64,000 nucleotides of DNA from Fibrobacter sp. UWT2 (lineage in GTDB: Bacteria > Fibrobacterota > Fibrobacteria > Fibrobacterales > Fibrobacteraceae), in the NCBI RefSeq assembly GCF_900142545.1, contig NZ_FRBF01000002.1, positions 62,001-126,000 on the forward strand, read 5' to 3'. This document shows positions 3,530 to 62,541 of the stretch, piece after piece. Each line of letters begins with the position of its first letter. Within the stretch, counting starts at the first letter, position 1. The notes under the pieces were generated by a model. The model searched no databases and was not told the DNA's origin. It saw nothing but the letters and a program-made list of their open reading frames with translations. The translations under genes were made by a program, and so were the position numbers.

Positions 3530-3605
3530 GAACTAGCCGCAAAGCTCAAGGCCGAGATTGTGTAGGGTATGGGGCCGCGCTGAAGTTCTTAGCTCGTAAA
3601 GAGCC
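3530..3605. repeat. dispersed ~75-bp repeat, copy B
   Basis: Second long copy of the repeat at 2273-2355, same orientation, just 3' of the 82-aa gene. Copies A and B bracket mmpA and the Fic remnant. The rest of 3302-3529 is AT-rich, with no supported gene. Confidence 0.6.
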
Positions 3606-3611
3606 TAAAAA

Positions 3612-3860
3612 TCAGTAATCGTCGCCGAGGATTTCTTCGAATCTTTTATCTCGGAATTCCCAGTCAATTTTTATGCTATCGTGAAACGGAGTGTGCCGAT
3701 TGTATGACATTGCATGAAGACGGAAAAGGTCCGGGTCCAGGAAATCCTTGAGGTCAGGTTTAATCTTTACCGGATTTTTTCTAACGCGTTCTACAGCACG
3801 ACGGATTTCTTCCTCGTCCTTACGCAAGAATTCCTCAAGTTCATCCATCGTGTACGGCAT
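3612..3860 (-). CDS. hypothetical 82-aa charged protein
   Basis: Not recognised. The protein is highly charged (MDELEEFLRKDEEEIRRAVERVRKN) with a predicted helical N-terminal half and a C-terminus ending IDWEFRDKRFEEILGDDY. The frame is preceded by CAGAGGT about 11 bases before ATG, a usable Shine-Dalgarno site. Size, charge and position in an accessory island beside an HTH-Fic pair would fit an antitoxin-like or regulatory protein, but nothing specific supports this. The partial repeat copy C lies immediately upstream. Confidence 0.55.
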   Translation of the reverse strand: MPYTMDELEEFLRKDEEEIRRAVERVRKNPVKIKPDLKDFLDPDLFRLHAMSYNRHTPFHDSIKIDWEFRDKRFEEILGDDY

Positions 3861-3874
3861 ATTAGTTTTACCTC

Positions 3875-3896
3875 TGCTCGTAAAGAGTGACTATAG
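3875..3896. repeat. dispersed repeat, partial copy C
   Basis: About 22 bases (TGCTCGTAAAGAG then TGACTATA) match one end of copy A; the remainder of the repeat is absent. It sits between the 82-aa gene and the GIY-YIG gene, so all three minus-strand units of the island end in the same sequence. Confidence 0.45.
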
Positions 3897-3920
3897 ACTC
3901 ATTTTGTCTATCTTATTTTT

Positions 3921-4697
3921 TTATTTATTTCCATTTGCGAAATAGGACTGTTTTATTAATTCCATAATGTCAGCAATCTTTGATTTTTCTGAAAGATATA
4001 CTCTATAATCGCCATTACCCCAATGACCAATATCTGAAACATCTTGTGCTATTCCATTGGGATCGACTAGAGTACCCTTGGACATATTGATGAAAATCTT
4101 CAGGTTATTTTTTTGAATTTCTACATCAGTGAAATTTTTTGGAGATTTGAACGCAATGTAAAGTTTCTTTGGCTCAACAACCACGTTGTCAAGTTTCTTT
4201 ATCTCTTTTTTTAGTTCTTGATAAAGTAGAATGGTTTCTTTGTTTCCTTTGGAAAGTAAACTATCCTCTGTATACAACACTGAATTTTCAACTTCTTCTG
4301 CCATTTTTTCGTCAATGATTTCGTGACCTTCCGGTGAAACTTTGTGCAATCTTTGGACTGTTCCACTGACGGTTGCAATCGTCTGAAGAATTGCATAAGC
4401 ATCATCGGCAGACATTGCATAGAACTCTTTTTTTCTCTTTTTACCATCAAAAGTTTCAATAGCTCGCAGGTTTGGATTGATGCTGTCTATCATATTATGG
4501 AGAGCCAAATCCTGAAGGCGCTCATTAACTTCATAGATGGCGAACACTCTGAAAGCATAAGGAATGCACTCGCTTCGATTAAGTTCCTTTAAGCGTTTCT
4601 GTAAATTATCCGCATATCCAATTTTCACATATTCAGGAAAGCTCGGATTAGTAAGGATATATACAACGCCTTGACCTTTGTTATTTTTCTTGTTCAT
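3921..4697 (-). CDS. GIY-YIG nuclease-like protein with DUF5655 domain
   Basis: 258 aa. The N-terminal half matches the T5orf172/GIY-YIG fold: GVVYILTNPSFPEYVKIGYA, then LQKRLKELNRS and a later FYAMSADDAYAIL. The C-terminal half (from about residue 150; LYIAFKSPKNFTDVEIQKNN, then DVSDIGHWGNGDYRVYL) resembles DUF5655. This pairing recurs in accessory proteins, sometimes near restriction-modification or phage-related genes. The classical GIY is relaxed to VYI...VKIG, as in T5orf172 members. A Shine-Dalgarno AGGT lies 8 bases before ATG. The likely role is DNA binding or cleavage in defence or a mobile context; the substrate is unknown. Confidence 0.75.
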   Translation of the reverse strand: MNKKNNKGQGVVYILTNPSFPEYVKIGYADNLQKRLKELNRSECIPYAFRVFAIYEVNERLQDLALHNMIDSINPNLRAIETFDGKKRKKEFYAMSADDAYAILQTIATVSGTVQRLHKVSPEGHEIIDEKMAEEVENSVLYTEDSLLSKGNKETILLYQELKKEIKKLDNVVVEPKKLYIAFKSPKNFTDVEIQKNNLKIFINMSKGTLVDPNGIAQDVSDIGHWGNGDYRVYLSEKSKIADIMELIKQSYFANGNK

Positions 4698-4841
4698 TAT
4701 GCTTTACCTGTAAATGTGGCTCTTCTTTGTATGGTGGTTGTAACGCGACGCTTAAAGTATCCATATAAAAATATATCATATTTTTTGTTATCTCGCAAGC
4801 ATTTAGGGCAGAACGTTTATTTTTATGTGCTCGCAATACTC

Positions 4842-4876
4842 AAAAAACGCCCAGGCTTTTAACCTGGACGTTTTCT
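4842..4876 (-). terminator. rho-independent terminator of leuCD
   Basis: The stem ACGCCCAGG/CCTGGACGT (one G-T pair) with a 7-base loop is followed, on the minus strand, by a run of six T. It sits about 40 bases beyond the leuD stop. Confidence 0.75.
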
Positions 4877-4915
4877 AAAAGGAGGTCCCGGCTCGGAGGC
4901 GGGGAAGGCATCCTA

Positions 4916-5518
4916 TTACTTCAAGAACTGCATGTACGGCAGCTTGCTTGCAAGTTCCTGCACCTTGTCGGCGTTGGCCATGAGGGCGGAACGTGCGTGC
5001 CAGGAACCGTCGAGGAACTGACCGCGGGGGCCGTCGGCAAGCGTGAGCTCGATGGTTTCGTCACCCATCTTGAGCGTGCGGCTTTCGGTGCTCGTCACGA
5101 GTTCTTCGCTCGGGTGTGCTTCGATCCAGGCGAGAATCTTGTCTGCAACTTCGTGGCTCACCTTGTAGCAAGGCACGCCAATGGCCACGCAGTTACCGAA
5201 GAAGATTTCGGAGTAGCTTTCGGCGATGATGGCGCGGATGCCCCAGCGCTTGAGAGCCTGCGGAGCGTGTTCACGGCTGGAACCGCAACCGAAGTTCTGG
5301 TTAGAAACGAGGATGGAGCCGTTCTTGTAGGCCGGATCGCGGAACGGGTGGACCTTGCCCTGAGCGGCGAGGCCAGCGATATCGTCGGCAAAGGCGTTTG
5401 CGCCGAGGCCTTCGAAAGTCACGCACTTGAGGAAGCGTGCCGGGATGATACGGTCAGTGTCGATGTCGTTGCCGCGTACAGGAACGCCGGAACCTTTAAC
5501 AATGTCGATAGAATTCAT
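4916..5518 (-). CDS. leuD: 3-isopropylmalate dehydratase small subunit
   Basis: 200 aa, full length for LeuD. With LeuC it isomerises 2-isopropylmalate to 3-isopropylmalate in leucine biosynthesis in the cytoplasm. The N-terminus VPVRGNDIDTDRIIPARFLK and the loop NFGCGSSREHAPQAL are diagnostic of aconitase-superfamily swivel domains, and ESYSEIFFGNCVAIGVPC follows as expected. A Shine-Dalgarno AAGGAG precedes ATG, 18 bases after the leuC stop, so the pair forms one operon ended by the terminator at 4842-4876. Other leu genes are not in the window. Confidence 0.96.
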   Translation of the reverse strand: MNSIDIVKGSGVPVRGNDIDTDRIIPARFLKCVTFEGLGANAFADDIAGLAAQGKVHPFRDPAYKNGSILVSNQNFGCGSSREHAPQALKRWGIRAIIAESYSEIFFGNCVAIGVPCYKVSHEVADKILAWIEAHPSEELVTSTESRTLKMGDETIELTLADGPRGQFLDGSWHARSALMANADKVQELASKLPYMQFLK

Positions 5519-5536
5519 TTTTTAAATCTCCTTGCG

Positions 5537-6946
5537 TTACTTGATGTACTTGCGGACGTCGGTGACCTTGCCTTCGATGGCGGCGGCAGCCACCATGGCG
5601 GGGCTCATGAGGATGGTGCGGCCCGTCGGGCTGCCCTGACGGCCCTTGAAGTTACGGTTGCTGGAGCTTGCGCTCACCTGGCGGTCCTTGAGCTTATCCG
5701 GGTTCATGGCGAGGCAGAGCGAGCAGCCTGCTTCGCGCCATTCGGCACCGGCTTCCTTGAAAATCTTGTCGAGACCGAGAGCTTCGGCTTCCACCTTGAT
5801 CTTCATGGAGCCCGGAACGACCCACATCTTTACGGTCGGGGCGACCTTGTGGCCCTTGATGATTTCGGCGGCGGCCTGCAAGTCGCTGAGGCGGCCGTTG
5901 GTGCAGCTACCCACGAAGGCGATGTCAATCGGGCGGCCAATCATCTGGCTGCCTTCTTCCCAGCCCATGTATTCATAAGCTTCGGAGATGACCTTCTTTT
6001 CGCTGCCTTCGAATTCGCTGATCTTCGGCATGTTGCCGTTGAGCGGAATGGCCTGGGCCGGAGTGATACCCCAGGTAACCATCGGTTCGAGGTTGTCGCA
6101 GTTGATTTCGACTTCGTCGTCAAACTGGGCGTCGGCGTCGGTAGCCACGGACTTCCAGTAAGCAACGGCTTCGTCCCACTTGTCAGCCTTCGGGGCGTAC
6201 GGACGGCCCTTGAGGTATTCAAAAGTCTTTTCGTCGGGGTTGCAGTAACCGACGCGGGCGCCACCTTCGATAGCCATGTTGCAGACCGTCATACGGCCTT
6301 CCATGCCCATTTCTTCGATGACCGGACCGGCAAATTCGTAAGCGTAGCCAACGCCACCGTTCACGCCGAGCTTGGCGATGTAGGCGAGGGCAACGTCCTT
6401 GGCGGTCACACCCGGCTTGAGCTTGCCGGTGAACTTGATGCGGCGAGTCTTGAGCGGGCTCATGGCGAGCGTCTGGGTAGCGAGAACGTCGGCCACCTGG
6501 CTTGTACCGATACCGAATGCGATAGCACCGAAGGCACCGTGCGTTGCCGTGTGAGAGTCACCGCAAGCAACGGTCATACCCGGCTGGGTCACGCCTTCTT
6601 CGGGGCCCACGATGTGGATAACGCCCTGTTCGGCGGTGGCGGGGCCAAAGAACTTGATGCCGTTGTTCTTGGTGTTGTTTTCAATGTGGGAGAACATCTC
6701 TTCGGAAATGCCGTCCTTGAGCGGGCGGTTGCGTTCCGGGAAGGTGGTCGGGATAATGTGGTCGACCGTGGCGAAGGTGCGTTCCGGGAACAGAACCTTC
6801 TGGCCTTCTTCGCGGAGCTGCGCAAAAGCCTGCGGGCTCGTGACTTCGTGGCAGAGGTGGAGCCCGATAAAGAGCTGGCACTGGCCGCTCGGGAGCTTTG
6901 CTACCGTGTGGCTTTCAAAAATCTTCTGATAGAGTGATTTTCCCAT
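5537..6946 (-). CDS. leuC: 3-isopropylmalate dehydratase large subunit
   Basis: 469 aa, the usual LeuC length. It carries the [4Fe-4S] cluster of isopropylmalate isomerase: one cysteine in VGSCTNGR, two in the pair [10 protein letters not shown]. Other markers are [26 protein letters not shown] and the C-terminal [12 protein letters not shown]. It is first in the leuCD unit. No leucine-rich leader peptide or T-box was found between here and the divergent endoglucanase gene. The codon usage is strongly biased, which leaves a long artefactual open frame on the opposite strand. Confidence 0.96.
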
Positions 6947-28956: not shown

Positions 28957-28985
28957 AATATAATGCACAATTGGGCAATTGTCAA
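28957..28985 (-). promoter_or_regulatory. lexA promoter with LexA operator in the spacer
   Basis: On the minus strand TTGACA (28985-28980) and TATATT (28962-28957) are 17 bases apart. The spacer contains TGCCCAATTGTGCA (28977-28964), a perfect match to TGCNC-N4-GTGCA, the F. succinogenes LexA motif as I recall it from the literature. Binding would block RNA polymerase directly. Confidence 0.8.
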
Positions 28986-29122
28986 TAGGTTCACTGCACA
29001 AAATTTCATTATTTTACAAGACTCCGTCAAGCTTTTTCGTACAAAAAGCCCTTTCGAACAAAAAAAATTATATATTTTCCCCAAAAAGTCATTTTTCTTT
29101 AATGAAGTTCAGGGGGGCTTTC

Positions 29123-30892
29123 ATGAAAAATACACTTAAATACTTTTTGGGGGTAATTCTCCTATTTTCTGTTTGCGCATGGAGCAAAGCATCTGATATC
29201 CTCATCGTCGTTGACGACGAAATGATAAAAGACAACGAAATCAAGAATGCCATAGACACCTATACAGATGACATTTGGAATACTTATCAAGTAAACGCCA
29301 CTATCGTGTCTTTCAAATCCCAGAAGAATGGCGGGAAAGCCACCGACCTAAAAGAAATACTCGTAAGCAAGAAGGATTCCATTATGGGAGCCATCTTTGT
29401 TGGAGACATTCCGCGAGCTCAATTTGAATTCTACCAGAAAACTCAAGAAGGATTCCGGTACCAGCGCTGGGTAACAGACCTTTACTTCATGGACCTTGAC
29501 GGTGTTTGGAAAGACACTGCTGCCGGAGGCCCCGAAGCCTATGGCGGAAAGTTGTTTGAAACCACCACGACAACATTAAACTTTGATGTACGCGATGGTT
29601 CTCCGATACCAGGGAAAGTACCGGCGGATAGTTTTTCAATTGCATATTCCGGATACATCAAATCTCCAGTCACCGCACTTTGTTCCCTGCAACTTACCAC
29701 GGACAACGACAGGCGCCTTTGGATTAACGATTCCCTGCTCATTGACGCATGGTTCAACAACTGGGACATTCCCTATTACAGCGCTTTTCAATTCAAGAAA
29801 GACAGTCTCTACAAATTCAAACTAAACTATGCAGAGGAATATGGCACCGCTTATCTTACACTAAAATGGAAATGCGGGAATAATGCCTCCTATGAACCAA
29901 TCCCTGATTCCGTTTGGCGTCAAAATGACAAGAGCACACGCGGTCTCAACCAAACCTATTACGGAAATATTTTCATGAAAGATTCGCTCCCAGAGGAAGA
30001 CATAAAGCACCTTTGGATTTCTGGAAAATCCAATGGAGTTTTTGACGGGCACTATTCCAAAAGTGGCGCAGTTTCTGATTCCTTTGAAATATGGGTTTCT
30101 CGAATTGACCCCAACACGGCAGGTTTCTACGGTAACCCAAAAACACTTTTATTGAACTATTTCGAGAAAATCCACAACTACTATCTCGGTTTGTTCAAGA
30201 AAGCTACGCGTAGTGCCATGTTCCTAACTGAGGAAGGAGGCCTAAACAATCCTCTAGACCAGAAATTCGTTGATGGTTTGAGCCTTCTTTATTCCCCAGA
30301 CTCCCTTGATAAGTCCATCGCTGACGGGCAGGAATATCTAGACAACATTAAATCAGACAAGTATGATTGGGCCCTTTACGGTGGGCACGGAGGCCAGACT
30401 GGCCTTGGAAACGGGCTGGATATAACACGAGTGGAAAGAAACATGTGCGTGTCACCGAGATTCTTCCACTTTGCCTGCTGTGGTCCACTTACCTGCTATG
30501 ATTTCTACGGCAACGCCAATAGTGCCTCTGTTGGAAGCGAGCATATCTTTAACACGATTAACGGCGGTTTTGTAAGTATCGGTTCGTCCAAAACCAGTGG
30601 AAGCGACCAAATGGATGGTTTCATGTATTACGCCTTTGAGCACAAATTCATTGGCGAATCGTTCCGGGAATGGGTAAACGAAAGGGTAAAAAGGAACCAG
30701 TACAGTAACAAGGAAGACCTTTACGATTGGTTCTATGGAGAATCGATTATCGGAGATCCGATGCAAAAACTGGCAGTGCCAGAACAAACAACGACTCGCA
30801 TCCATAAAGTCAAAGCACAACGGATGCCACAAAAAAACGGCAAGCTGTACGACCTTTTGGGAAGAATCAAAGGCTTTTTAAACATCCAGTAA
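29123..30892 (+). CDS. secreted caspase/gingipain-like (C25-type) cysteine peptidase with PA14 domain
   Basis: 589 aa from ATG 29123 (GGGGGG Shine-Dalgarno site), with signal peptide MKNTLKYFLGVILLFSVCAWS. Residues 25-130 begin an α/β peptidase fold (DILIVVDDEMIKDNE, then IMGAIFVGDIPRA). A PA14-like β-barrel (about 139-265; CSLQLTTDNDRRLWINDSLL) is inserted. The fold then resumes to a presumed dyad of His422 in YGGHGGQTG and Cys452/Cys453 in HFACCGP, as in clan CD peptidases. PA14 usually binds carbohydrate. The C-terminus (GKLYDLLGRIKGFLNIQ) resembles a type IX secretion sorting tail. The neighbour downstream is a 40-aa peptide gene. The peptidase assignment rests on motif pattern, not on alignment. 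Confidence 0.7.
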   Translation: MKNTLKYFLGVILLFSVCAWSKASDILIVVDDEMIKDNEIKNAIDTYTDDIWNTYQVNATIVSFKSQKNGGKATDLKEILVSKKDSIMGAIFVGDIPRAQFEFYQKTQEGFRYQRWVTDLYFMDLDGVWKDTAAGGPEAYGGKLFETTTTTLNFDVRDGSPIPGKVPADSFSIAYSGYIKSPVTALCSLQLTTDNDRRLWINDSLLIDAWFNNWDIPYYSAFQFKKDSLYKFKLNYAEEYGTAYLTLKWKCGNNASYEPIPDSVWRQNDKSTRGLNQTYYGNIFMKDSLPEEDIKHLWISGKSNGVFDGHYSKSGAVSDSFEIWVSRIDPNTAGFYGNPKTLLLNYFEKIHNYYLGLFKKATRSAMFLTEEGGLNNPLDQKFVDGLSLLYSPDSLDKSIADGQEYLDNIKSDKYDWALYGGHGGQTGLGNGLDITRVERNMCVSPRFFHFACCGPLTCYDFYGNANSASVGSEHIFNTINGGFVSIGSSKTSGSDQMDGFMYYAFEHKFIGESFREWVNERVKRNQYSNKEDLYDWFYGESIIGDPMQKLAVPEQTTTRIHKVKAQRMPQKNGKLYDLLGRIKGFLNIQ

Positions 30893-30909: not shown

Positions 30910-30938
30910 TTGACGTTTGTGGTGTGATTTTTTATTTT
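30910..30938 (+). promoter_or_regulatory. possible promoter of the 40-aa peptide gene
   Basis: TTGACG (30910-30915) and TATTTT (30933-30938) are 17 bases apart. The predicted start of transcription falls at or next to the ATG at 30945. This would give a leaderless mRNA, which fits the missing Shine-Dalgarno site. Confidence 0.4.
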
Positions 30939-30944
30939 ATTTAT

Positions 30945-31067
30945 ATGGAAGAAAAAAAAGAATACACCGCTCCGAAGATGAACGTATACGAACTGGATTC
31001 ACAAGCTGTTCTTTTACAGCCTACTCAACCGGATGCGGGCGAGATTTCCAATACCGAATTCGATTAA
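30945..31067 (+). CDS. YxAP-family small peptide 1 (40 aa)
   Basis: A 40-codon frame: it starts MEEKKEYTAPKMNVYELD, has LL at 23-24 and ends in NTEFD. It shares with two small frames downstream of the giant CUB gene the ungapped motif KK[ES]YxAPxM[NED]V-x8-LL and an acidic C-terminus; peptide 3 also ends in EFD. No signal peptide. It lies between the cysteine peptidase gene and a strong terminator, with its own possible promoter. Conservation of three frames across unrelated flanks is the evidence that it is translated. It resembles short Y-x-x-P...LL proteins seen in Bacteroidota, whose function I do not know. Confidence 0.75.
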   Translation: MEEKKEYTAPKMNVYELDSQAVLLQPTQPDAGEISNTEFD

Positions 31068-31095
31068 TTAGGTTGTCTAGTTTTTATAGAATTTA

Positions 31096-31130
31096 AAGTC
31101 CCTTGATTTGGTCAAGGGACTTATTTTGTT
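31096..31130 (+). terminator. terminator after peptide 1
   Basis: AAGTCCCTTG-atttggt-CAAGGGACTT followed by ATTTTGTTT. It separates peptide 1 from the giant CUB gene. The rest of 31131-31410 has no supported gene, only the promoter at 31248. Confidence 0.85.
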
Positions 31131-31247
31131 TGGGTTAGGCGGCGATTTTGTTTAATATTTTGCTGATAAAATAATTTTTACGAACGACGTATCTTATTGT
31201 CCTTCATGGACTTCTGTATGTCGTTGTCTTACAAACGTGTTATTTTA

Positions 31248-31276
31248 TTGACAAGAAAAACATATTTTTGTAACTT
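31248..31276 (+). promoter_or_regulatory. promoter of the giant CUB-repeat gene
   Basis: TTGACA (31248-31253) and TAACTT (31271-31276) with a 17-base spacer. It implies a leader of about 130 bases before ATG 31411, which has an AAGGA Shine-Dalgarno site. Confidence 0.45.
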
Positions 31277-31410
31277 TCGCCGCATGTTTGTGATTTTTGT
31301 CACATCTTTTTGGTGGTTAGTTGTCCCTGCGTTACGGGGGAGAACTGGCACTTTTTTTGCAAAAATCGCAATAAAAAACACTCCACACATAAAATTAAAG
31401 AAGGATTAGC

Positions 31411-34400
31411 ATGAAAAAGAATTTTCATGTGTTTTTCGTATTTGCCCTGCTAGCGCTTTTGGCTGCTCCGTCGGCTGCGTATACATACAAGAACATTTAC
31501 CTTTCTAGCAATGGAGAAACTGTCGTTTTGCCTTGCGACGGTACAGCTGATATCTCTGCTTCTGATATTGTGAGGAACTTTGTCATATATGATGATGGTG
31601 GTGCTAGCGGAAACTACAGCAATAACTGTAGGGGAGTTGCTCTAATTACCGCCCCTAAGGGGTATGGAATCAAGGCTTGGGGATGGATGAAGGCGGAATC
31701 CGCAGATTCCCTTCATATTAAGGATGATCGTTACAATACATATATGATTGCAAAATTTAATGGCACAGGGGTAAATTCGCAACGGGATTTTGGTCCGTAT
31801 TACTCGACTTGCGACGGGATGAATATTTCGTTTATTACAGATGGTAGTGTTGTTGGTCCTGGATTTGAACTGCATGTGGAATTTGTGCCTTTGCGTACGG
31901 TTAGTGCAAATTCGGATCAAATATGGCTCTATAGCCCATATAAATGGGGTTATTATATAACTGAGACGTGGGGATTGACGGGGTCGGGTGTGGATGCAAC
32001 TTACTCAGAAGGGATGACGGCTTCGTTTAGTTTCAATCCTAATTATAATGAAGAGCGTGTGTGGGGAGTAAAGTTGAGAAAAAAAGATGGGTCGGGCATC
32101 GTTGGATACCGGAAAAATGAGCGTAATGGTAGGTATGAGTTCGTAATGCCTTCGAGCGATGTTGGAGTTGTAACGAAACTAGATTGGGATAGTGCAGGTT
32201 ATAATATGTTTAATGATGAAAAATCGTTATTCCTGTATGGAACAAGGAAAATCAAGCTTTATGATGAAGGGGGTCCAGAAGATGATTATGCCAGTAGTTT
32301 TGATGGATGGCTAAAATTATCTACGCCCGAAGGTTTTTATTTCCAGGTAACCGGAACGGTTGAAACGGAACCGTCATCTTATGGTGGTTATGATTATTTA
32401 GAGATTTATGATGGGGAGGTGTCAAAGGGAACTTCTGCTACACCGAAATGCAAAGTGTATACACAAGGAAATAAAGCTGGAAAGGTTAATGTTCCCTCTA
32501 ATTGTGTAAGTACTGCTGAATATATGACGATTCATTTCCGTACTGATGGCTCCATTACCGCACCTGGCTTGGATTTGACGGTATCGTCTTTGTATAGAAC
32601 TTATTCTGTTAATGTCAAACAGACTTCAAATGGAAGCATCTCTAGCGATGCGTATTCTAGTCAAAAAGGTTCTAAGGTCACATTGACGGTCAAACCCAAT
32701 AGTGGTTATGTGTTAAAGGGTGTCGAAGTCGTGAATAAAACAACGGGTTTTTCCTATACTTATGGTAGTTATCAATCGAATACAGTGACATTTTCGATGC
32801 CTGCATCTGATGTAGATGTAACTCCGACTTTTGTGAAAGACACTTATAGCATCACGAAGAAATCTGCGACTGGAGGGTCTGTTACGGGACCTATTTCCGC
32901 AAAGGTTGGCTCAACTGTTGCAATGACGACAAGTACTACGAATGGATATCTATACAGTGGTGCTTCTGTTAAGGTAGATGGAAGTAGTGTGAGCGTTTTT
33001 GGCGAAAAGGGCTTTTTGGACGGAAAATTTAGCTTTACGATGCCGATTGGCGATGTGACCGTGACTCCTTCGTTTACCAACGATTGGAGTGCCGAGGGCG
33101 GCCTCTTCATCAATATGACCAAGGCGAAAAATGTTACCGCGGAGATTCCGTCAGGTGTCAAATCCTTCAAGGTTTATGACGATGGTGGCAAGTATGGGGA
33201 TTATGGCCGCAGCAACAGAGACACCCTCGTGCTTTATGTCCCGACAGGCCATGTCCTGCAGTTGTCGGGAAGTATGAATATAAATTCGTCTTCTGACTCT
33301 TTGCTCGTCTATAATGGATCAAGGGCTAACGCCTACAGTCTTCTTGGAACATACAAGGGCTCTATAGAAAATGTCCTGAGCACCAGCAACTACATGACTC
33401 TCGTGTTCCATTCAGGTACCTCCTATTATAAGGGACTTGACCTGACGGTAAAAGTTCTTTCCGTAGTCAACCAGATTACCTACAAGAACAATAATTCCGG
33501 TGGCTCCGTGACGTCGGATGCGCCTACGACAGCAAGGAATGGTTACACAGTCAATTACTCCTATTCCTATAACAGTGGCTACATGGTAAGCGATATAAAG
33601 GCAGTCGATGCCGATGGCAAAAATGTAACGGTTACCGGCGGCTGGTATAATAACAATAAAGCATCCTTCAAGATGCCTCTGTCCGCGGTGACGGTTACCT
33701 CTTCCTACACGAACAACTGGAGTGCCGAGGGCGACCTCTACATCAACATGCCCAAGGCGAGCAAGGTTACCGCGACGATTCCGTCTGGAGTCAAGTCCTT
33801 CAAGGTTTATGACGATGGCGGCAAATCCGAGAGCTATAGCGGCAGCAACAGGGATACCCTCGTGCTTAATGCCCCGGCAGGCTATGTCCTGCAGTTGTCG
33901 GGAACCAAGAAAACAGCTTCATCTAATGACTCTTTGCTCGTCTATAACGGATCAGGGGCTAATGCCAATAGCCTTCTTGAAACATACAAGAGTTATAATG
34001 AACAAACAATAAGCAATGTCGTGAGCACTGGCAGCGCCATGACTCTCGTGTTCCATACAGGATACTCCCGTGATTACGGCCTCAACCTGACGGTTAAAGT
34101 CATTCCCATAGTCCACCAGATTACTTACACGAACAGGAACTCCGGCGGTTCAGTAACTTCGGATGCGCCAAAGACGGGAACGAGAGATGCCTTCGTCAAT
34201 TTCTCCTATTCCTATAATAGTGGCTACCTGGTAAAAGAGATAAAGGCGGTCACTGCAGATGGTGACAGCGTAGCGGTTACCGGCGGCTGGTATAATGAAA
34301 AGAATGCGTCTTTCAAGATGCCTCTGGCTGCGGTGACGGTCACCTCGACCTATACGGATGACTTGACCGACGAGGGCGGTCTCTATATCAACATGCGTAA

Positions 34401-37400
34401 GAGTAGCAGGTTTACCGCAACGATTCCTGAAGGTGTCAAATCCTTCAAGGTTTATGACGATGGCGGCAACTCTGGGAACTATAGCGGCTACAACAGGGAC
34501 ACCCTCGTGCTTAAGGCCCCGGATGGCTACGTCCTGCGATTGTCGGGAAGCAAGAAAACGAATTCGTCTAGTGACTCATTGCTCGTCTATAACGGATCAG
34601 GGGCTAATGCCAATAGCCTTCTTAAAACATACAAGAGTTCATATGAACAAACTATAAGTAACGACCTGAGTAGTGGCAACTACATGACTCTCGTGTTCCA
34701 TTCAGGATACTCCAATTATTACGGCCTTGATTTGACGGTTAAAGTCATTTCTGCAGTCAATCAGATTACCTACACGAACAAGAATTCCGGCGGTTCCGTT
34801 ACATCGGATGCACCAAAGTCGGGAAAGAAAGATTCCATTGTCAGTTTCTCCTATTCCTATAATAGTGGTTATATGGTAAAAGAAATAAAGGCTGTCTCAG
34901 CAGACGGTGACAGCGTAATAGTTACCGGCGGGTGGTATAATGACAAGAAAGCGTCCTTCAAAATGCCTTTGTCTGCAGTGACGGTCACTTCGTCTTATAC
35001 TGATGACTTGAGCGCCGAAGGCGGTCTTTATGTCAATATGCGTAAGACGAGCAAGTTTACCGCGACGATTCCTGAAGGTGTCAATTCGTTCAAGGTTTAT
35101 GACGATGGCGGCAACTCTGGGAACTATAGCGGCAGCAACAGGGACACTCTCGTGCTTAAGGCTCCGGATGGCTACGTCCTGCGATTGTCGGGAAACAAGA
35201 AAACAGCTTCGTCTTATGACTCATTGCTCGTCTATAACGGATCAGGGGCTAATGCCAATAGTCTTCTTAAAACATACAAGAGTTCATATGAACAAACTAT
35301 AGGTAACGACCTGAGCAGTGGTAGCTACATGACTCTCGTGTTCCATTCTGGATCCTCCCGTGATTACGGCCTCAACCTGACGGTTCAAGTCATTTCTGCA
35401 GTCAATCAGATTACCTACACGAACAAGAATTCTGGCGGTTCCGTGACTTCGGGGGCCCCTACGACAGGGAAGGACGGTTCCACAGTCAATTACACCTATT
35501 CCTATGACAGCGGCTACATGGTAAGTGACATCACTGCAGTCGATGCCGATGGCAAAAATGTAACGGTTACTGGCGGCTGGTATAATAACAAGAGAGCGTT
35601 CTTCAAGATGCCTCTGTCTGCGGTGACGATCACCTCGTCCTATACGGATATTTGGAGCGCCGATGGCGGCCTTTACATCAACATGCTCAAGGCTAGTAAG
35701 GTTGTCGCGACGATTCCAAAAGGAGTCGAATCGTTCAAGGTTTATGACGACGGCGGCATTTCCGGGAACTATAGCGGCAACAACAGGGACACTCTCGTGC
35801 TTAAGGCTCCGGATGGCTACGTCCTGCAGTTGACGGGAACCAAAAAAACAGCTTCGTCTTATGACTCATTGCTCGTCTATAACGGATCAGGGACTAATGC
35901 CAATAGTCTTCTTAAAACATACAAGAGTTCATATGAACAAACAATAAGCAATGTCCTGAGCAGTGGCAACTACATGACTCTCGTGTTCCATTCAGGCTCC
36001 TCCCGTGATTACGGCCTCGACCTTAAGGTGACGCTTATACTTGTGGACTATGCCATTCAAGTTAATAGTGCAACAAATGGAAAGGTGTCTGCATCTAAAA
36101 CAACAGAACTCCATTTTGGTGATACGGTTTCTTTGACTGCGTCTGCTAATACTGGGTATATGCTAAAAGACGTTGTTGCCAAAGATTCGGCTGGCAATGC
36201 CGTTAAAGTCACGCAGTATTCGTTTGACGTTTCTGAGTTAATCATGCCGGCAAAGAATTTGGTTGTTACTCCGACATTTACGAATAACTTTACCGCAGCA
36301 GGCGGCTTACATCTCGATATGCGGAGGAATGCGAATGTCAAAGCGAATATTCCTTCTGGAGTTAAGTCGTTAAAGGTCTATGATAACGGCGGCAAGGATG
36401 GTGTTTATGAGGCGAGTAGTAATGACACCTTGACACTCACGGCTCCTGAAGGATACCGAATTAAATTGACGGGTAATGTTAAGACAGAAAAAGGTTGGGA
36501 TTACTTCTACGTCTTTGATGGAGAGAATGCTAGCGCTAATAATTTGTTGACGATTGCTGGCCCGGCAACCTATAATTCTCATGATAAAGATACCAGTCTT
36601 ACGGCGATATATAGCACTGGCAATCATATGACGCTCTGCTTTAAGGCTGATGGAATTTATCAATTCGAAGGCCTTGACCTTACCGTAACGCTCGAAAAGA
36701 TTAATTATACGATTACTCGTAATTCTGTTACTGGTGGAACTGTAAATGGCAAGGATGCCGATACGCTTGGTGCAGTTGTTTACCTTACTGGTTCTCCAAC
36801 AGGCTCCTATCATTTGAGCAATGTGACTGTCGTGGACGAAGGCGGAAACATCATCAAGTCGCCTATTTACTTGTTCGACCGTTCAAAATTTACTATGCCT
36901 GCAAGTAATGTGACAGTGACGCCAACATGGACGGATAACCTTACTGCAGAAGGCGGACTCCATCTTGATCTATTGAAGAACGAAAAAATTAACGAGGATA
37001 TCCCGGCTGGGGTCAAATCCTTCAATTTGTATGATAATGGTGGCGCAGGCGGTAATTATGCAAGTAATAGCAGAGATACTTTGACGCTTAATGCACCTAC
37101 GGGATTCTACCTGGTTGTGACAGGTTCTGTTACATTAGAAAAGGGCTGCGATTCTCTTTACATCTTCGATGGTGTTAATACCTCTGCTGCTCAGCTGTTT
37201 GGCTCAACAAGTGCATCAACGGGTAGTAAAACTGATATTGGAACCATTACCAGTTCTGGCCGTAGCCTCACATTCCGATTCAAGTCGGATGTTTCGAAAG
37301 AGTATTCTGGTCTTAACTTGAAGGTCTCTGTTGAACCGATTACCTACGTTATTGCGATTGCCGATGCTGCAAATGGTCGTGTTTCGAGTAGCGTAAAGAA

Positions 37401-39504
37401 GGCGGCCAAGGATTCAATTGTCAATCTGTCTTGGGTCTATACGACGGGTTATTTGATCAGGGATATTGATGTCAAGGATGCTTCCGAAAACAAGATTGTT
37501 GTCAATGGCGGCTGGTATTCGGGTGCCAAGGCAAGCTTTACAATGCCTGAAAGTCCTGTCATTGTTACCCCGACCTTTACGAATAACTTGACTGCCGAAG
37601 GCGATAATGGCCTCTACATCAATATGCCGAAGACCGGAATGGTCAATGCGACTATCCCGAATAAGGTGACTTCGTTCAAGGTGTATGATGACGGCGGTGC
37701 ATCGGGTCTTTACAGCAATGGTTGTAATGGGACGCTTGTGCTTAATGCTCCAGAAGGCTACATGTTGCAGCTAAGTGGAAGTGTTACTGTCGAAAATCCG
37801 GGTTCTTCGGGTACAATCTATGATTACTTGATTGTCTATGACGGCGCCGATAATTCCGCGACCAAGTTGGTTGACAAGAAAACGGGGTCGGCGACAATCT
37901 CAGCTGTTCGTAGCTCGGGCCGTAATTTGACCTTGTTCTTCCATTCTGACGGAAGTAACGTGAGAGATGGCCTCGACTTGACGGTGACACTTGTTCCTGT
38001 GGATTATACGGTCACGGTGGCGACTGTTACGGGTGGGTCCATGACGAGTGACAAGGAATCTGCGGTTATGGATGGCGTGGTGACATTGACGGCGGTGCCG
38101 AAAGATGGCTACCTGATTGACGGTGTTGAAGTCAAGGATGCCAATAATAATGTTGTCGCCTTGAATAATGACATTTATTGGTATTGCGGTACTAATAAGG
38201 TCTCTTTCAAAATGCCAAGTGCATCTGTTACGGTCACCCCGAAATTTTCTCCGATTAACGCGCTGTACGTGAATATGCCGAAGAAAAGTGGAGTGGGTTG
38301 TGATGTTCATATTCCAGAAAATGTAACCTCCTTTAAAATTTACGATGATGGTGGTGAAGCTGGTAACTACAGTAACAACGTCAATGGCGAACTTTGGGTG
38401 GTGTTTGATGAAAAGTCTGGTAATGCAGGTCTAAAATTATCAGGGACAGTCTCAGCACCGAAGGATGGAGCTCACTTGTATGCTACCGCTGTGACTGATG
38501 ACGCTATGGAATTGTTCTACACCAATAATGGTTCCTCAGATGGTCTTGCCGAGGATATTGGTACGTTTATTAATTCCTCGTCATTAATAATTGAATTCCG
38601 TACAGGCAATGTTGGTAGCGGTGCCGGTCTTGATTTGAAAGTTGATGTTGTCAAATCTCCGGGTGCCGGCGTAAAAGTTGTTTATGACGACGCTCATGTG
38701 ATTGGTGATGGAAAACTCAGTAGATGGGCTTCGATAACGGATGGCGACAAGACATCGGAACTCAATATCCCCGAAGATGTTGCGGTTGACACAATCACGC
38801 TCTCTCGCAATTTTAAAACGAATAACGTGTATAATACAATTCTTTTCCCGTTTGATGTAAAGGCAGATAGTCTTGACGGAGTTGTAAAGGTGCTTCGTTT
38901 CAACGGCTTCAAGCAGAAAGAAGATGAATCTTGGGTTGTTCGCATGAAACGAGTCTGGACGAAGGATTCTATTGGTCGCGATATTGATGTCAATGCTAAT
39001 ACGCCCTACTTGGTCGTGATGGATGATCCCAAAATGGTTGTCCGTGGTGGCGTGACACTGAGAAAGACTGTTGAACCCATCGCGATGGCCGAAGACTGTA
39101 ACTGGAAATTCATTGGAACGCTTTCTTATCAGGAATGGCCCGAAGGAAATCCTCTTGTCTATGGATTTAGTAACAATCAGTTTGTGAAGGCTGGTACGAA
39201 TGTGAGGGTTGGCGCATTGCGTGCATACTTGCTGAAGCCCAAGCCGAAGCTGGCTAGCGAAAGACCGAGCCTGAATGGCTCTGCGCACGCCTACGAGTAC
39301 ATTGCCCCGGTGTATATTCCTGACGAATTCGATATCGTTGAAGACGATGACGAAAATGGCGAGAATACCACCGTTATCGGGCGCTACAACACGCGTACAG
39401 GCGAATTCAGGATGCTGCCCAGCTATGACATCAAGGGTCGCAAGCTGAACGGCAAGCCCAACGTACACAAAGCTTATTATGGTAAAAAAATTATAAGGAA
39501 ATAG
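31411..39504 (+). CDS. giant secreted protein of 11 CUB-like domains alternating with InlB-B-like repeats
   Basis: 2697 aa with signal peptide (MKKNFHVFFVFALLALLAAP). I count 11 CUB-like domains, each opening with (F/I/L)K(V/I/L)YD(D/N/E)GG and containing DTLVLxAPxGYxLQLSG, DSLLVYNG and MTLVFHSG. They alternate with about 80-100-residue β modules (SGGSVTSDAP...SYSYNSGYMV...ASFKMPLSAVTVT) like divergent InlB B-repeats. Residues about 561-1546 are five near-identical units of 211-215 aa. The C-terminal part (about 2430-2697) is different and ends MLPSYDIKGRKLNGKPN...YYGKKIIRK, resembling a type IX secretion sorting domain. It is probably a surface adhesin or carbohydrate-binding scaffold. Two peptide genes follow within 200 bases, co-directional. 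Confidence 0.88.
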   Translation: MKKNFHVFFVFALLALLAAPSAAYTYKNIYLSSNGETVVLPCDGTADISASDIVRNFVIYDDGGASGNYSNNCRGVALITAPKGYGIKAWGWMKAESADSLHIKDDRYNTYMIAKFNGTGVNSQRDFGPYYSTCDGMNISFITDGSVVGPGFELHVEFVPLRTVSANSDQIWLYSPYKWGYYITETWGLTGSGVDATYSEGMTASFSFNPNYNEERVWGVKLRKKDGSGIVGYRKNERNGRYEFVMPSSDVGVVTKLDWDSAGYNMFNDEKSLFLYGTRKIKLYDEGGPEDDYASSFDGWLKLSTPEGFYFQVTGTVETEPSSYGGYDYLEIYDGEVSKGTSATPKCKVYTQGNKAGKVNVPSNCVSTAEYMTIHFRTDGSITAPGLDLTVSSLYRTYSVNVKQTSNGSISSDAYSSQKGSKVTLTVKPNSGYVLKGVEVVNKTTGFSYTYGSYQSNTVTFSMPASDVDVTPTFVKDTYSITKKSATGGSVTGPISAKVGSTVAMTTSTTNGYLYSGASVKVDGSSVSVFGEKGFLDGKFSFTMPIGDVTVTPSFTNDWSAEGGLFINMTKAKNVTAEIPSGVKSFKVYDDGGKYGDYGRSNRDTLVLYVPTGHVLQLSGSMNINSSSDSLLVYNGSRANAYSLLGTYKGSIENVLSTSNYMTLVFHSGTSYYKGLDLTVKVLSVVNQITYKNNNSGGSVTSDAPTTARNGYTVNYSYSYNSGYMVSDIKAVDADGKNVTVTGGWYNNNKASFKMPLSAVTVTSSYTNNWSAEGDLYINMPKASKVTATIPSGVKSFKVYDDGGKSESYSGSNRDTLVLNAPAGYVLQLSGTKKTASSNDSLLVYNGSGANANSLLETYKSYNEQTISNVVSTGSAMTLVFHTGYSRDYGLNLTVKVIPIVHQITYTNRNSGGSVTSDAPKTGTRDAFVNFSYSYNSGYLVKEIKAVTADGDSVAVTGGWYNEKNASFKMPLAAVTVTSTYTDDLTDEGGLYINMRKSSRFTATIPEGVKSFKVYDDGGNSGNYSGYNRDTLVLKAPDGYVLRLSGSKKTNSSSDSLLVYNGSGANANSLLKTYKSSYEQTISNDLSSGNYMTLVFHSGYSNYYGLDLTVKVISAVNQITYTNKNSGGSVTSDAPKSGKKDSIVSFSYSYNSGYMVKEIKAVSADGDSVIVTGGWYNDKKASFKMPLSAVTVTSSYTDDLSAEGGLYVNMRKTSKFTATIPEGVNSFKVYDDGGNSGNYSGSNRDTLVLKAPDGYVLRLSGNKKTASSYDSLLVYNGSGANANSLLKTYKSSYEQTIGNDLSSGSYMTLVFHSGSSRDYGLNLTVQVISAVNQITYTNKNSGGSVTSGAPTTGKDGSTVNYTYSYDSGYMVSDITAVDADGKNVTVTGGWYNNKRAFFKMPLSAVTITSSYTDIWSADGGLYINMLKASKVVATIPKGVESFKVYDDGGISGNYSGNNRDTLVLKAPDGYVLQLTGTKKTASSYDSLLVYNGSGTNANSLLKTYKSSYEQTISNVLSSGNYMTLVFHSGSSRDYGLDLKVTLILVDYAIQVNSATNGKVSASKTTELHFGDTVSLTASANTGYMLKDVVAKDSAGNAVKVTQYSFDVSELIMPAKNLVVTPTFTNNFTAAGGLHLDMRRNANVKANIPSGVKSLKVYDNGGKDGVYEASSNDTLTLTAPEGYRIKLTGNVKTEKGWDYFYVFDGENASANNLLTIAGPATYNSHDKDTSLTAIYSTGNHMTLCFKADGIYQFEGLDLTVTLEKINYTITRNSVTGGTVNGKDADTLGAVVYLTGSPTGSYHLSNVTVVDEGGNIIKSPIYLFDRSKFTMPASNVTVTPTWTDNLTAEGGLHLDLLKNEKINEDIPAGVKSFNLYDNGGAGGNYASNSRDTLTLNAPTGFYLVVTGSVTLEKGCDSLYIFDGVNTSAAQLFGSTSASTGSKTDIGTITSSGRSLTFRFKSDVSKEYSGLNLKVSVEPITYVIAIADAANGRVSSSVKKAAKDSIVNLSWVYTTGYLIRDIDVKDASENKIVVNGGWYSGAKASFTMPESPVIVTPTFTNNLTAEGDNGLYINMPKTGMVNATIPNKVTSFKVYDDGGASGLYSNGCNGTLVLNAPEGYMLQLSGSVTVENPGSSGTIYDYLIVYDGADNSATKLVDKKTGSATISAVRSSGRNLTLFFHSDGSNVRDGLDLTVTLVPVDYTVTVATVTGGSMTSDKESAVMDGVVTLTAVPKDGYLIDGVEVKDANNNVVALNNDIYWYCGTNKVSFKMPSASVTVTPKFSPINALYVNMPKKSGVGCDVHIPENVTSFKIYDDGGEAGNYSNNVNGELWVVFDEKSGNAGLKLSGTVSAPKDGAHLYATAVTDDAMELFYTNNGSSDGLAEDIGTFINSSSLIIEFRTGNVGSGAGLDLKVDVVKSPGAGVKVVYDDAHVIGDGKLSRWASITDGDKTSELNIPEDVAVDTITLSRNFKTNNVYNTILFPFDVKADSLDGVVKVLRFNGFKQKEDESWVVRMKRVWTKDSIGRDIDVNANTPYLVVMDDPKMVVRGGVTLRKTVEPIAMAEDCNWKFIGTLSYQEWPEGNPLVYGFSNNQFVKAGTNVRVGALRAYLLKPKPKLASERPSLNGSAHAYEYIAPVYIPDEFDIVEDDDENGENTTVIGRYNTRTGEFRMLPSYDIKGRKLNGKPNVHKAYYGKKIIRK
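33091..36040 (+). repeat. five tandem DNA repeats of 633-645 bp inside the CUB gene
   Basis: Unit starts at 33091, 33724, 34369, 35014 and 35659 (periods 633, 645, 645, 645), the last unit incomplete. Long stretches are identical at DNA level, for example the TATAACGGATCAGGG region. This indicates recent duplication or gene conversion and a site prone to recombination and assembly collapse. Confidence 0.9.
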
Positions 39505-39514
39505 GAAAAATCAA

Positions 39515-39685
39515 ATGAATATTCTAAAAGAAAAACTTTCTGATGTTGCCTCCAAAAAGAGCTATACGGCTCCTACGATGGAGGTGGTTGTAATGGATCA
39601 TCATATGGATTTGCTCAACGGTAGTCCTAATGAACCGTCATCTGGGGAAGACGCCCCGACGGCCATGAGCGTTGAAGAAGAATAA
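39515..39685 (+). CDS. YxAP-family small peptide 2 (56 aa)
   Basis: A 56-codon frame starting 10 bases after the giant gene's stop, with GGA 9 bases before ATG. An N-terminal extension MNILKEKLSDVAS precedes the motif KKSYTAPTMEVVVMDHHMDL, LL at 33-34 and an acidic Ser/Pro-rich tail ending VEEE. It aligns without gaps to peptides 1 and 3. No signal peptide or cysteine. It is probably co-transcribed with the giant CUB gene and peptide 3. Confidence 0.75.
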   Translation: MNILKEKLSDVASKKSYTAPTMEVVVMDHHMDLLNGSPNEPSSGEDAPTAMSVEEE

Positions 39686-39695
39686 AGGATTGATT

Positions 39696-39830
39696 ATGAA
39701 CCAGAAAAAAGAATACGTTGCTCCGGAAATGGATGTGCTTGAATACATGGTTGAAGTGTCTCTTTTGGTAGATAGTCCCAAATCCGATAATGCTGATGCT
39801 GATTCTGCTGATAATATCGAATTCGACTAA
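39696..39830 (+). CDS. YxAP-family small peptide 3 (44 aa)
   Basis: A 44-codon frame 10 bases after peptide 2, with AAAGGA before ATG. It begins MNQKKEYVAPEMDVLEYMVE, has LL at 23-24 and ends DNIEFD, very like peptide 1 (NTEFD). The tail between is strongly acidic. It is last gene of the CUB gene-peptide 2-peptide 3 unit, closed by the terminator at 39856-39886. Confidence 0.75.
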   Translation: MNQKKEYVAPEMDVLEYMVEVSLLVDSPKSDNADADSADNIEFD

Positions 39831-39855
39831 TCCATTCCATAAGTCAGTATAAAAA

Positions 39856-39886
39856 GAAAGGAACTCTTGAAGAGTTCCTTTCTTTG
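39856..39886. terminator. terminator shared by peptide 3 and tmRNA
   Basis: GAAAGGAACTCT-tga-AGAGTTCCTTTC, a 12-base perfect stem with T-rich sequence on both strands. It lies between the converging peptide unit and ssrA. Confidence 0.85.
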
Positions 39887-39889
39887 TTC

Positions 39890-40246
39890 TGGAGGTGAGG
39901 GGAGTCGAACCCCTGTCCAAAATCACGTCCATGCACGTTCCTACAAGCTTTCCCTTCGTATTTAAGGTCTCGTCTGATCTACGCCCAAGAAGGTCGGCGC
40001 GGACTTTGACCAGCCTAGTGAATCTCGGACTCTAGCCCCAGGCATGCAAGAATCCTATCCCATATTGCGTCCGGACGTACATCCCGATGGGAGCGGAATG
40101 AGGCCCGGCGTTGCCGTTAATTAGGCAGCGAGTGCGTAGTTTTCGTCAGCACTTATTTTTTTTCAGACTTTTTTACGAGTGCCCTCGTCTGAGACCTCGG
40201 CTTGCAACTAACACTTCGGTAACCCTGTCGAAACCAGAGCACCCCC
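39890..40246 (-). ncRNA. ssrA: tmRNA
   Basis: Transfer-messenger RNA of about 357 nt, which rescues stalled ribosomes and tags their products. The 5' end GGGGGTGCTCTGGTTTCGAC pairs its first seven bases with the 3' CACCTCC (one G-T pair). The T-arm GGACAGGGGTTCGACTCCCC is present. The tag frame (40150-40121 on the minus strand) reads ADENYALAA then TAA. The CCA tail is not encoded (A then GAAC), so it must be added. The discriminator is A at 39890. The gene is single-piece, not permuted. Confidence 0.97.
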
Positions 40247-61071: not shown

Positions 61072-62541
61072 ATGGTAAAAAGGGAGTCGCGATGTCTCTT
61101 TGTTTGGGTGCTAGCTGCGCTATGGTTCTTTGGCGCTGTTTCGCTCTATGCAGAAGATGATGTTGTTGCAGATAGTACCTCTGCAGAAGCTCCCTCGAAA
61201 TCCCCTTGGATGTGGCCGGTAGAACATATCATCCAGCCCTTTTTGAATGGCCTTATTTACCCGATTGCCCAACCTGTGGACTACGCCTTGAAGAACGGCA
61301 TTATCGATAAGTCGGTTCAGTTGATTTCTTTTGGCGAAGACTACAAGATCATGGTTTACCCGAGTTTCAATTTCAAGCCGGGTTCGCGAACCATGGTGGG
61401 GGCGAATTATAGACACCGTAGCGTATTTCTCGAAAAAGACTACCTGGTCATGCAGGGAGAATACTACGCCAATGGTGACGTGGGCTTGACTGCCCGCTAT
61501 GTAAAGCATTCCCTGTTTGGAACGCGCCTGTTTGGCGGCTTCAGGTACGATATCGATCTGGACCGCGATAAACGATTCAATATTCCTGAAACCAAGGAAA
61601 GTTACCTACAGCCCGATTCCAGCTACCAGTTTACCTGGCGCTTGGGCGCTCCTATTACCAATACGGCAAATTGGAATGCGGAACTTTGGACGTCCCTGTA
61701 TTTCAGCCGGGCAAGTCACCCCGATATTCAGGATTCGGTGCTAATCAGCGATGACTTTAAAATTGAAGACCGCGGCTTGTACCAGAATGCCACCCAAGTG
61801 CCGGTGGGGCTTTCCCTGGTGTATGACAACCTTGACTTGCCCTATGCCCCTTCGCGTGGCAGCCGCGTGGTGTTGAACGGAACCTATACCTTTGTGGGCA
61901 AGTATTCCGGGGTGCGCTACGATGACTTGGGCATTTCTGTTGAAGATGGGCAAGATGAAGTTATCAAGGATGGCGGAAAGAAGCATGACTTCTATACCAC
62001 GGAGTTCATTTTCCAGCATTATTTCTTGTTGGGTTCTTCGCACCAGTACGTGCTTTCGGCAAAGGAAGCTCGTGAAAATCGCCGCTTCTATACGGACTTT
62101 TCATGGGACGAGGCGGTGCGTGTTTGGCGACCGGAAAATATGCGTAACACCCTTTTTGAACGCAGGGTGATTGCCATGCAGTACCGAATGGTTTCCCTGT
62201 GGGAAGTCGAAGAGGGGGGAGCTCCTCACGATGCCTTTATCAACCTGAATTCAAAGGCGCCTCTGCGTGGCTATGACGACAAGTGGACGACACACAACCT
62301 GATGTCTTTTAGCGTGGAATACCGCTGGCCGGTGGACCGCTTGGTAGACGGCGTAATTTTTGACGAATATGCCCTGATTGCACCCAAGATCGATAAGTGG
62401 AGCTTGGACCATTATTACAATTCGTGGGGCTTCGGTATCCGTGTTCGCCAGCCCGATCTTTATCTTTTCCGCCTGCAGTTCGGCTTCCATGGCTTGCACG
62501 GCGTGAATATGATTATGACCATCGCTCCGGAATTCAAGTAA
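61072..62541 (+). CDS. Omp85/BamA-like outer-membrane barrel protein
   Basis: 489 aa with signal peptide (CLFVWVLAALWFFGAVSLYA). After a 50-residue segment there is a β-barrel of the surface-antigen (Omp85) type. It contains the APLRGYDDKW segment corresponding to the conserved (V/L)RG(F/Y) loop of BamA/TamA/D15, and DNLDLPYAPSRGSRVVLNGT like the DNRDxPxxPxxG strand. POTRA domains are absent or very short, so it is not the main BamA. The start ATG 61072 has only a very close GGGG. Divergent from the RND-like exporter, it may be a partner in lipid or protein transfer. Confidence 0.82.
   Translation: MVKRESRCLFVWVLAALWFFGAVSLYAEDDVVADSTSAEAPSKSPWMWPVEHIIQPFLNGLIYPIAQPVDYALKNGIIDKSVQLISFGEDYKIMVYPSFNFKPGSRTMVGANYRHRSVFLEKDYLVMQGEYYANGDVGLTARYVKHSLFGTRLFGGFRYDIDLDRDKRFNIPETKESYLQPDSSYQFTWRLGAPITNTANWNAELWTSLYFSRASHPDIQDSVLISDDFKIEDRGLYQNATQVPVGLSLVYDNLDLPYAPSRGSRVVLNGTYTFVGKYSGVRYDDLGISVEDGQDEVIKDGGKKHDFYTTEFIFQHYFLLGSSHQYVLSAKEARENRRFYTDFSWDEAVRVWRPENMRNTLFERRVIAMQYRMVSLWEVEEGGAPHDAFINLNSKAPLRGYDDKWTTHNLMSFSVEYRWPVDRLVDGVIFDEYALIAPKIDKWSLDHYYNSWGFGIRVRQPDLYLFRLQFGFHGLHGVNMIMTIAPEFK

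Follow-up and report, generated by a model that had tools for sequence, protein, structure and literature searches.

Short peptides beside a tail-bearing surface protein in Fibrobacter sp. UWT2 are likely precursors of an LPP-like RiPP system

Linear polyphosphorylated peptides (LPPs), encoded by lppA, K, B, S, D, and N, were described in 2026 from Bacillota only, and their role is unknown (Popov et al. 2026, PMC13381572). LppB, the RRE, binds the YxxP leader of LPP precursors; LppK phosphorylates core Ser3 and does not accept Thr; LppS, a signal-peptidase-like protease (S29, H68, D93), cuts after T-1 and so frees the core of its leader; and deleting LppN made no detectable difference (PMC13381572). 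Binding to W/Y/LxxP-type sequences is a property of several RRE classes (PMC12710340), and the affinity of PadeB1 for its leader is about 5 nM (PMC5067487). Here, we examined a window of 64,000 nucleotides from Fibrobacter sp. UWT2 (contig NZ_FRBF01000002.1, positions 62,001 to 126,000), in which three short reading frames surround the gene for a giant secreted protein. We consider it likely that these frames encode LPP-like RiPP precursors, matured in trans by an operon on the same contig and acting with the adjacent tailed surface protein. The features of the window are as follows.

30945..31067, plus strand: peptide 1 precursor, 40 aa, MEEKKEYTAPKMNVYELDSQAVLLQPTQPDAGEISNTEFD, with an ATG start at 30945; the predicted leader ends at LL and the predicted core is QPTQPDAGEISNTEFD
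31096..31122, plus strand: terminator-like hairpin 3′ of peptide 1, from the terminator scan
31411..39504, plus strand: secreted partner protein, 2697 aa, with CUB and divergent InlB repeats
39172..39501, plus strand: C-terminal tail region of the partner (model A5), ending in SYDIKGRKLNGKPNVHKAYYGKKIIRK, which marks peptide partners
39515..39685, plus strand: peptide 2 precursor, 56 aa, ATG start, predicted core NGSPNEPSSGEDAPTAMSVEEE
39696..39830, plus strand: peptide 3 precursor, 44 aa, ATG start, predicted core VDSPKSDNADADSADNIEFD
39853..39885, no strand assigned: perfect inverted repeat of 16 bp in the gap that separates peptide 3 from the tmRNA gene, from reading of the sequence

A preliminary description of this DNA had proposed frames of 40, 56, and 44 codons at 30945, 39515, and 39696, one before and two after the 2697-aa CUB/InlB-repeat protein, and this arrangement was present, each frame with an ATG. 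All three peptides carry the reported KK[ES]YxAPxM[NED]V, exactly eight residues and then LL, and peptides 1 and 3 share the EFD ending. The gapless alignment claimed for them extends from KK to LL and fails beyond, where tail lengths differ, and the tails described as acidic are mostly so. Peptides 2 and 3 are 10 bases apart (39686-39695), as stated, and the Shine-Dalgarno sites assigned to them are plausible. After peptide 3, where a strong terminator had been placed, lies the perfect inverted repeat, which the terminator scan did not list; the repeat is probably a two-way terminator, common to peptide 3 and the opposite-strand tmRNA, whose gene (39887-40246, minus strand) directly faces the end of the peptide 2/3 operon. 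A promoter-like site lies ahead of peptide 1 (30910-30938), for which we saw no obvious Shine-Dalgarno site. Farther upstream (28979-30892) is the gene for a secreted protein that contains a PA14 domain and weakly matches Peptidase_C25; this gene is not a conserved neighbor of peptide 1, as the peptide 1 orthologue in another species (locus L106) has different upstream sequence, and it was rejected as a pairing partner.

A single-sequence search found copies of the peptides on four other contigs of the same genome. A profile (A1) built from eight of these own-genome peptides returned ten from that genome, including two outside the training set (E 0.002 and 0.004). The same profile, which realizes the homologue search proposed in the preliminary description, detected peptides in 34 of 37 congeneric genomes (own included), with matches down to E 3e-20, whereas 24 genomes representing the other genera of the phylum that were searched gave no match. 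The trio and the giant protein are conserved together in the L106 species. There, the synonymous-biased change likewise suggested as a check was seen, with fewer replacement than silent changes for the trio (pooled pS 0.39, pN 0.23) and most clearly so for peptide 1 (pS 0.42, pN 0.15). Pfam and NCBIfam assigned no family to the peptides or to the partner tail; one peptide gave a weak match to the paeninodin model NF033524 (E 0.028). Every one of these genes falls below common annotation length cut-offs, as chance frames or misread sequence might. Because the profile recovers untrained own-genome peptides and congeneric matches, however, the peptides are not chance, and with a family kept across species, phyla, and positions and a conserved trio in L106, we regard that explanation as refuted for all practical purposes.

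The family also extends beyond the phylum. A scan of named genomes with the nucleotidyltransferase described below found relatives in rumen Prevotella, in Segatella, and in further Bacteroidales, with identities of about 40-48%. With the A1 profile, peptides were found in 54 of 201 genomes of the Segatella baroniae family, and members occurred in 3 of 247 evenly sampled Bacteroidales. Short Bacteroidota proteins of this type had been mentioned in the preliminary description, and the profile matches in Prevotella/Segatella-family genomes bear that out. As many as 18 peptides were counted in one genome. In a midpoint-rooted kinase tree the two phyla did not separate cleanly, 19 Prevotella-type rows falling between Fibrobacter rows, and transfer between Fibrobacterota and Bacteroidota likely occurred. 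Nucleotidyltransferases on Segatella copri plasmids lie in other gene contexts and were set aside. These searches point to many small genes in Fibrobacter and in relatives of Prevotella that are too short for the usual annotation cut-offs.

Peptide anatomy was tallied in a set of 136 unique peptides taken from the fetched loci. The conserved block is KKxYxxPxMxV followed by LL, which sits 13 residues past the Pro in 129 peptides. The residue at LL+3, a position to which the preliminary description had not drawn attention, is Ser in 116 and Cys in 8. It is the leader-type YxxP block that is most conserved, and the tails are variable; cleavage after LL would make the conserved Ser core residue 3. 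Fibrobacter tails are of two rough types. Some finish in a strand-like stretch (for example SMDVEFINRD), others in ..GLAPxxxDHLA or a close variant, an ending also seen in Prevotella (..DEKHLA). An ending of the D-x-x-[HP]-LA kind or similar is frequent in both phyla (L139, L140, L165, L170; L052, L081, L092). Window peptide 1 has Thr where relatives carry Ser; its orthologue (L106, genome G029) reads LLQAS, with Ser at that place. As Thr replaces Ser here and LppK refuses Thr, peptide 1 may be unmodified or handled differently.

Some peptides of the family lie in an operon with candidate maturation genes, likewise a feature beyond the preliminary description. In the UWT2 genome (G000), its enzymes lie on the window's contig (C2), whose position 62001 is the first of the window; the distance between them and the window is about 55 kb.

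C2:129-3188: tailed protein of the operon, preceding the operon peptides
C2:3200-3483: two operon peptides, which are the two profile matches outside the training set
C2:3529-7930: maturation operon enzymes, comprising the five genes below
C2:3529-4647: NTP_transf_5 nucleotidyltransferase (NTase)
C2:4644-5570: HprK/PEPCK-like kinase
C2:5575-6027: S24/S26 protease, 150 aa (TIGR02228/PF00717 matches)
C2:6087-6302: PqqD protein, a discrete RRE (PF05402)
C2:6308-7930: ABC exporter (ABC_membrane and ABC_tran), with no C39 domain

The genome-wide family search gave a single PF05402 match, inside this operon, and in further loci, from Fibrobacterota and Bacteroidota alike, PqqD has the equivalent position. 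Several Bacteroidota loci share the order tailed protein, peptide, NTase, kinase, S26 protease, PqqD, ABC exporter, and the NTase-kinase-protease order is kept in 61 of the 67 loci with all three genes. Catalytic motifs are nearly invariant: GxSMxP and HR in the protease (68/68), Walker A and NDD in the kinase (69/69), and GDxD in the NTase (131/132). The NTase matches PF14907 (E down to 5e-46), and its model resembles a nucleotidyltransferase-like protein; the kinase model resembles PEP carboxykinases, and the kinase scores below family cut-offs with its motifs intact. Two Fibrobacter species have kinase and protease as one open reading frame (L057 7363-8745, L074 10747-12168), which is either a natural fusion or an assembly error. 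A second NTP_transf_5 gene in the UWT2 genome (C5:201837-202580; L070 9547-10680, minus strand) has no peptide, kinase, or RRE gene adjoining.

Enzymes and peptides also go together across the genus. All 34 peptide-bearing genomes have the NTase and 32 have the kinase, single-copy in nearly all of them; the two with no kinase match are G017 and G026 (90 and 87% complete). Two of the peptide-less genomes, G001 and G013, lack NTase, kinase, and tailed protein alike. The third, G031, keeps an NTase and only a divergent relative of the machinery, a PqqD/kinase/protease group (C83; L071, about 3551-6864) close to a gene whose end resembles that of a tyrosine-rich capsule-type kinase; this may be a separate, capsule-linked LPP-like system.

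The precursor status of the peptides, one of two readings offered in the preliminary description (RiPP or export precursors), is thus well supported by relatives that share an operon with a PqqD RRE, kinase, nucleotidyltransferase, leader-peptidase-like protease, and exporter. Their maturation can be sketched by homology to LPP. The KKxYxxPxMxV leader would bind the discrete RRE, the HprK-like kinase would phosphorylate the near-invariant Ser at LL+3, and NTP_transf_5 may add to the phosphate on that Ser. The Ser/His signal-peptidase-like protease would cut after LL, leaving Ser as the third core residue, and the ABC exporter would move the core, which is acidic and variable, across the cytoplasmic membrane. 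Common genome and sequence family are the only links between the operon and the loci of the window, and one shared enzyme set most likely processes all peptides of the UWT2 genome.

The second reading in the preliminary description was that the peptides are small partners of the surface protein. The genome encodes six proteins with the A5 tail, identified by a tail-model search (C2:2859, C2:101169, which is the window protein, C4:91156, C6:109754, C14:32392, and C34:17326), and peptide genes adjoin all six. Nine of the ten own-genome peptides directly follow a tailed gene; window peptide 1 precedes one instead. Over the fetched loci, a tailed gene lies no more than 700 bp upstream for 122 of the 136 peptides (median distance 20 bp). 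Within the genus, the tail was found in 34/34 peptide-bearing genomes vs 0/3 peptide-less ones, a split with a chance of 1 in 7770 if genomes were independent, which they are not. In Bacteroidota, a good part of the fetched peptide loci lie directly behind a tailed protein, and some have no obvious tailed neighbor. Since the bodies of the partners are unrelated (CUB, InlB repeats, GLUG, and others), it is the tail that identifies a partner. Homologues do adjoin surface proteins, as had been anticipated, but the CUB or peptidase domains named in the preliminary description do not set the partner; CUB domains were rejected as the basis of pairing, the tail being the only feature that partners share. 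Peptide presence and position are tied to a tail-bearing surface protein, and the two readings, originally framed as alternatives, are supported jointly.

Peptide tails also resemble their partners. Compared with the tail region of their own partner, they scored 21.10, against 19.59 ± 0.34 for permuted partners (2,000 permutations, maximum 20.76), a figure that is indicative only because related loci are not independent. The 13 strong matches all fall on one partner strand, 59-72 residues from the partner end. For the window peptides, no match between tails and their own partner strand was upheld; the EFD of peptides 1 and 3 had been considered a copy of DEFDIV in the cargo, but the orthologous cargo reads EIDIV while its peptides keep EFD. 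Both the tail mimicry in the 13 matches and the tight pairing with a tailed gene would suit unmodified small partners, escorts or subunits of the tailed protein such as a stabilizing strand, with the operon enzymes serving other substrates. We find that account distinctly unlikely, as the most conserved part of the peptides is the leader-type YxxP block and not the tail, genes for RRE, kinase, protease, and exporter stand directly behind peptide genes in both phyla, and no peptides occur where NTase and kinase are missing.

At the C-terminus the partner tail has YxxxG[RK], KGxY, and GKKVxIK-like blocks close together, which by eye resemble motifs B, D, and E of type IX short signals of Prevotella intermedia (motif region, the last 43-55 residues; PMC11969387), with the difference that this tail type alone is tied to peptides. 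No Pfam or NCBIfam model matched the tail, and hhalign against a Por_Secre_tail protein gave Prob 61 over 29 columns. Type IX secretion has been proposed for Fibrobacter succinogenes (PMC6851124). If the tail is a type IX signal, the copied strand would immediately precede the place where the sortase is expected to act.

Gene pairing and the mimicry by some tails lead us to infer that outside the cell the core acts with the co-encoded surface protein. The exported peptides could instead be diffusible signals or antibacterials, with the surface protein as receptor, carrier, or bystander, in keeping with an ABC exporter in the operon, hypervariable cores, and a patchy distribution over two phyla. 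Such a use would contradict the cargo role but leave precursor status untouched; we rate it as possible but rather doubtful, given up to 18 precursors in a genome, each type beside a structural surface protein, and no immunity gene seen. A specific form of the cargo role, which we offer as a speculation with a small chance of being correct, is that each mature peptide helps to anchor its own cargo at the surface. Once the leader is gone, the peptide would have a free N-terminus and carry a phosphate or phospho-sugar on Ser3, and it might join or guide the tailed protein at or near the sortase site during type IX secretion; the cargo strand that some tails copy immediately precedes the place where cleavage is expected. 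If true, LPP-like RiPPs would serve surface proteins as anchors or sorting keys instead of being free natural products.

Among known RiPP systems, paeninodin-type lasso peptides (PadeA/B1/K; pseudomycoidin PsmN) share the discrete RRE, a [W/Y]xxP leader, an HprK-like kinase, and NTP_transf_5 with this system, and the YxxP leader and the weak NF033524 match would fit membership among them. They differ in their leader protease, as PF13471 (B2) was absent from all nine genomes searched, and the cores here lack a conserved lasso ring pattern. No Asn-synthetase-like macrolactam cyclase was present among the operon neighbors inspected. A lasso product is very unlikely. The kinase also shows weak likeness to HprK-related kinase A (TIGR04352; L051 E 8e-5) and to SynChlorMet ScmC (TIGR04249; L051 E 2.4e-8), far below the curated cut-offs in both cases, and the neighbors in those cassettes differ from those of this operon. 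A FibroRumin radical-SAM system was also considered and dropped, as no paper was found and no radical SAM gene was seen among the operon genes.

The closest likeness is to LPP, with which the gene set is equal: discrete RRE, HprK-like kinase, NTP transferase, signal-peptidase-like protease, and ABC exporter. The MsbA-like exporter and NTP transferase of LPP clusters are matched by the operon's ABC and NTP_transf_5 genes, and the archaeal-type signal-peptidase-like protease with catalytic Ser and His by the operon protease motifs. In both systems a cluster holds one to three short precursors, each with a variable tail behind a conserved YxxP leader, and in both a Ser lies three residues past the cut, which here is predicted. 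The LPP precursor motif YxxPxVLxHQxIxFETxxS is not matched in full, though YxxP, a frequent LxHQ, and the final Ser are present; LPP has FET before the cut where Fibrobacter and Bacteroidota peptides have LL, and the distance from YxxP to the cut is greater by two residues here. By homology, then, the system may work like LPP with an incompletely matched precursor motif. Hosts and setting differ as well. LPP hosts are Bacillota and its clusters lie beside capsule loci, whereas the peptides here belong to Fibrobacterota and Bacteroidota, each precursor is paired with a tail-bearing surface protein, and most precursors lie away from the enzymes. What is new relative to LPP is closely similar machinery in two Gram-negative phyla of the herbivore gut, scattered precursors served in trans, and pairing with surface cargo. 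This pairing is a strong genetic hint of function, in the working or sorting of surface proteins, and it gives a RiPP type without known role named partner genes and exact gene pairs.
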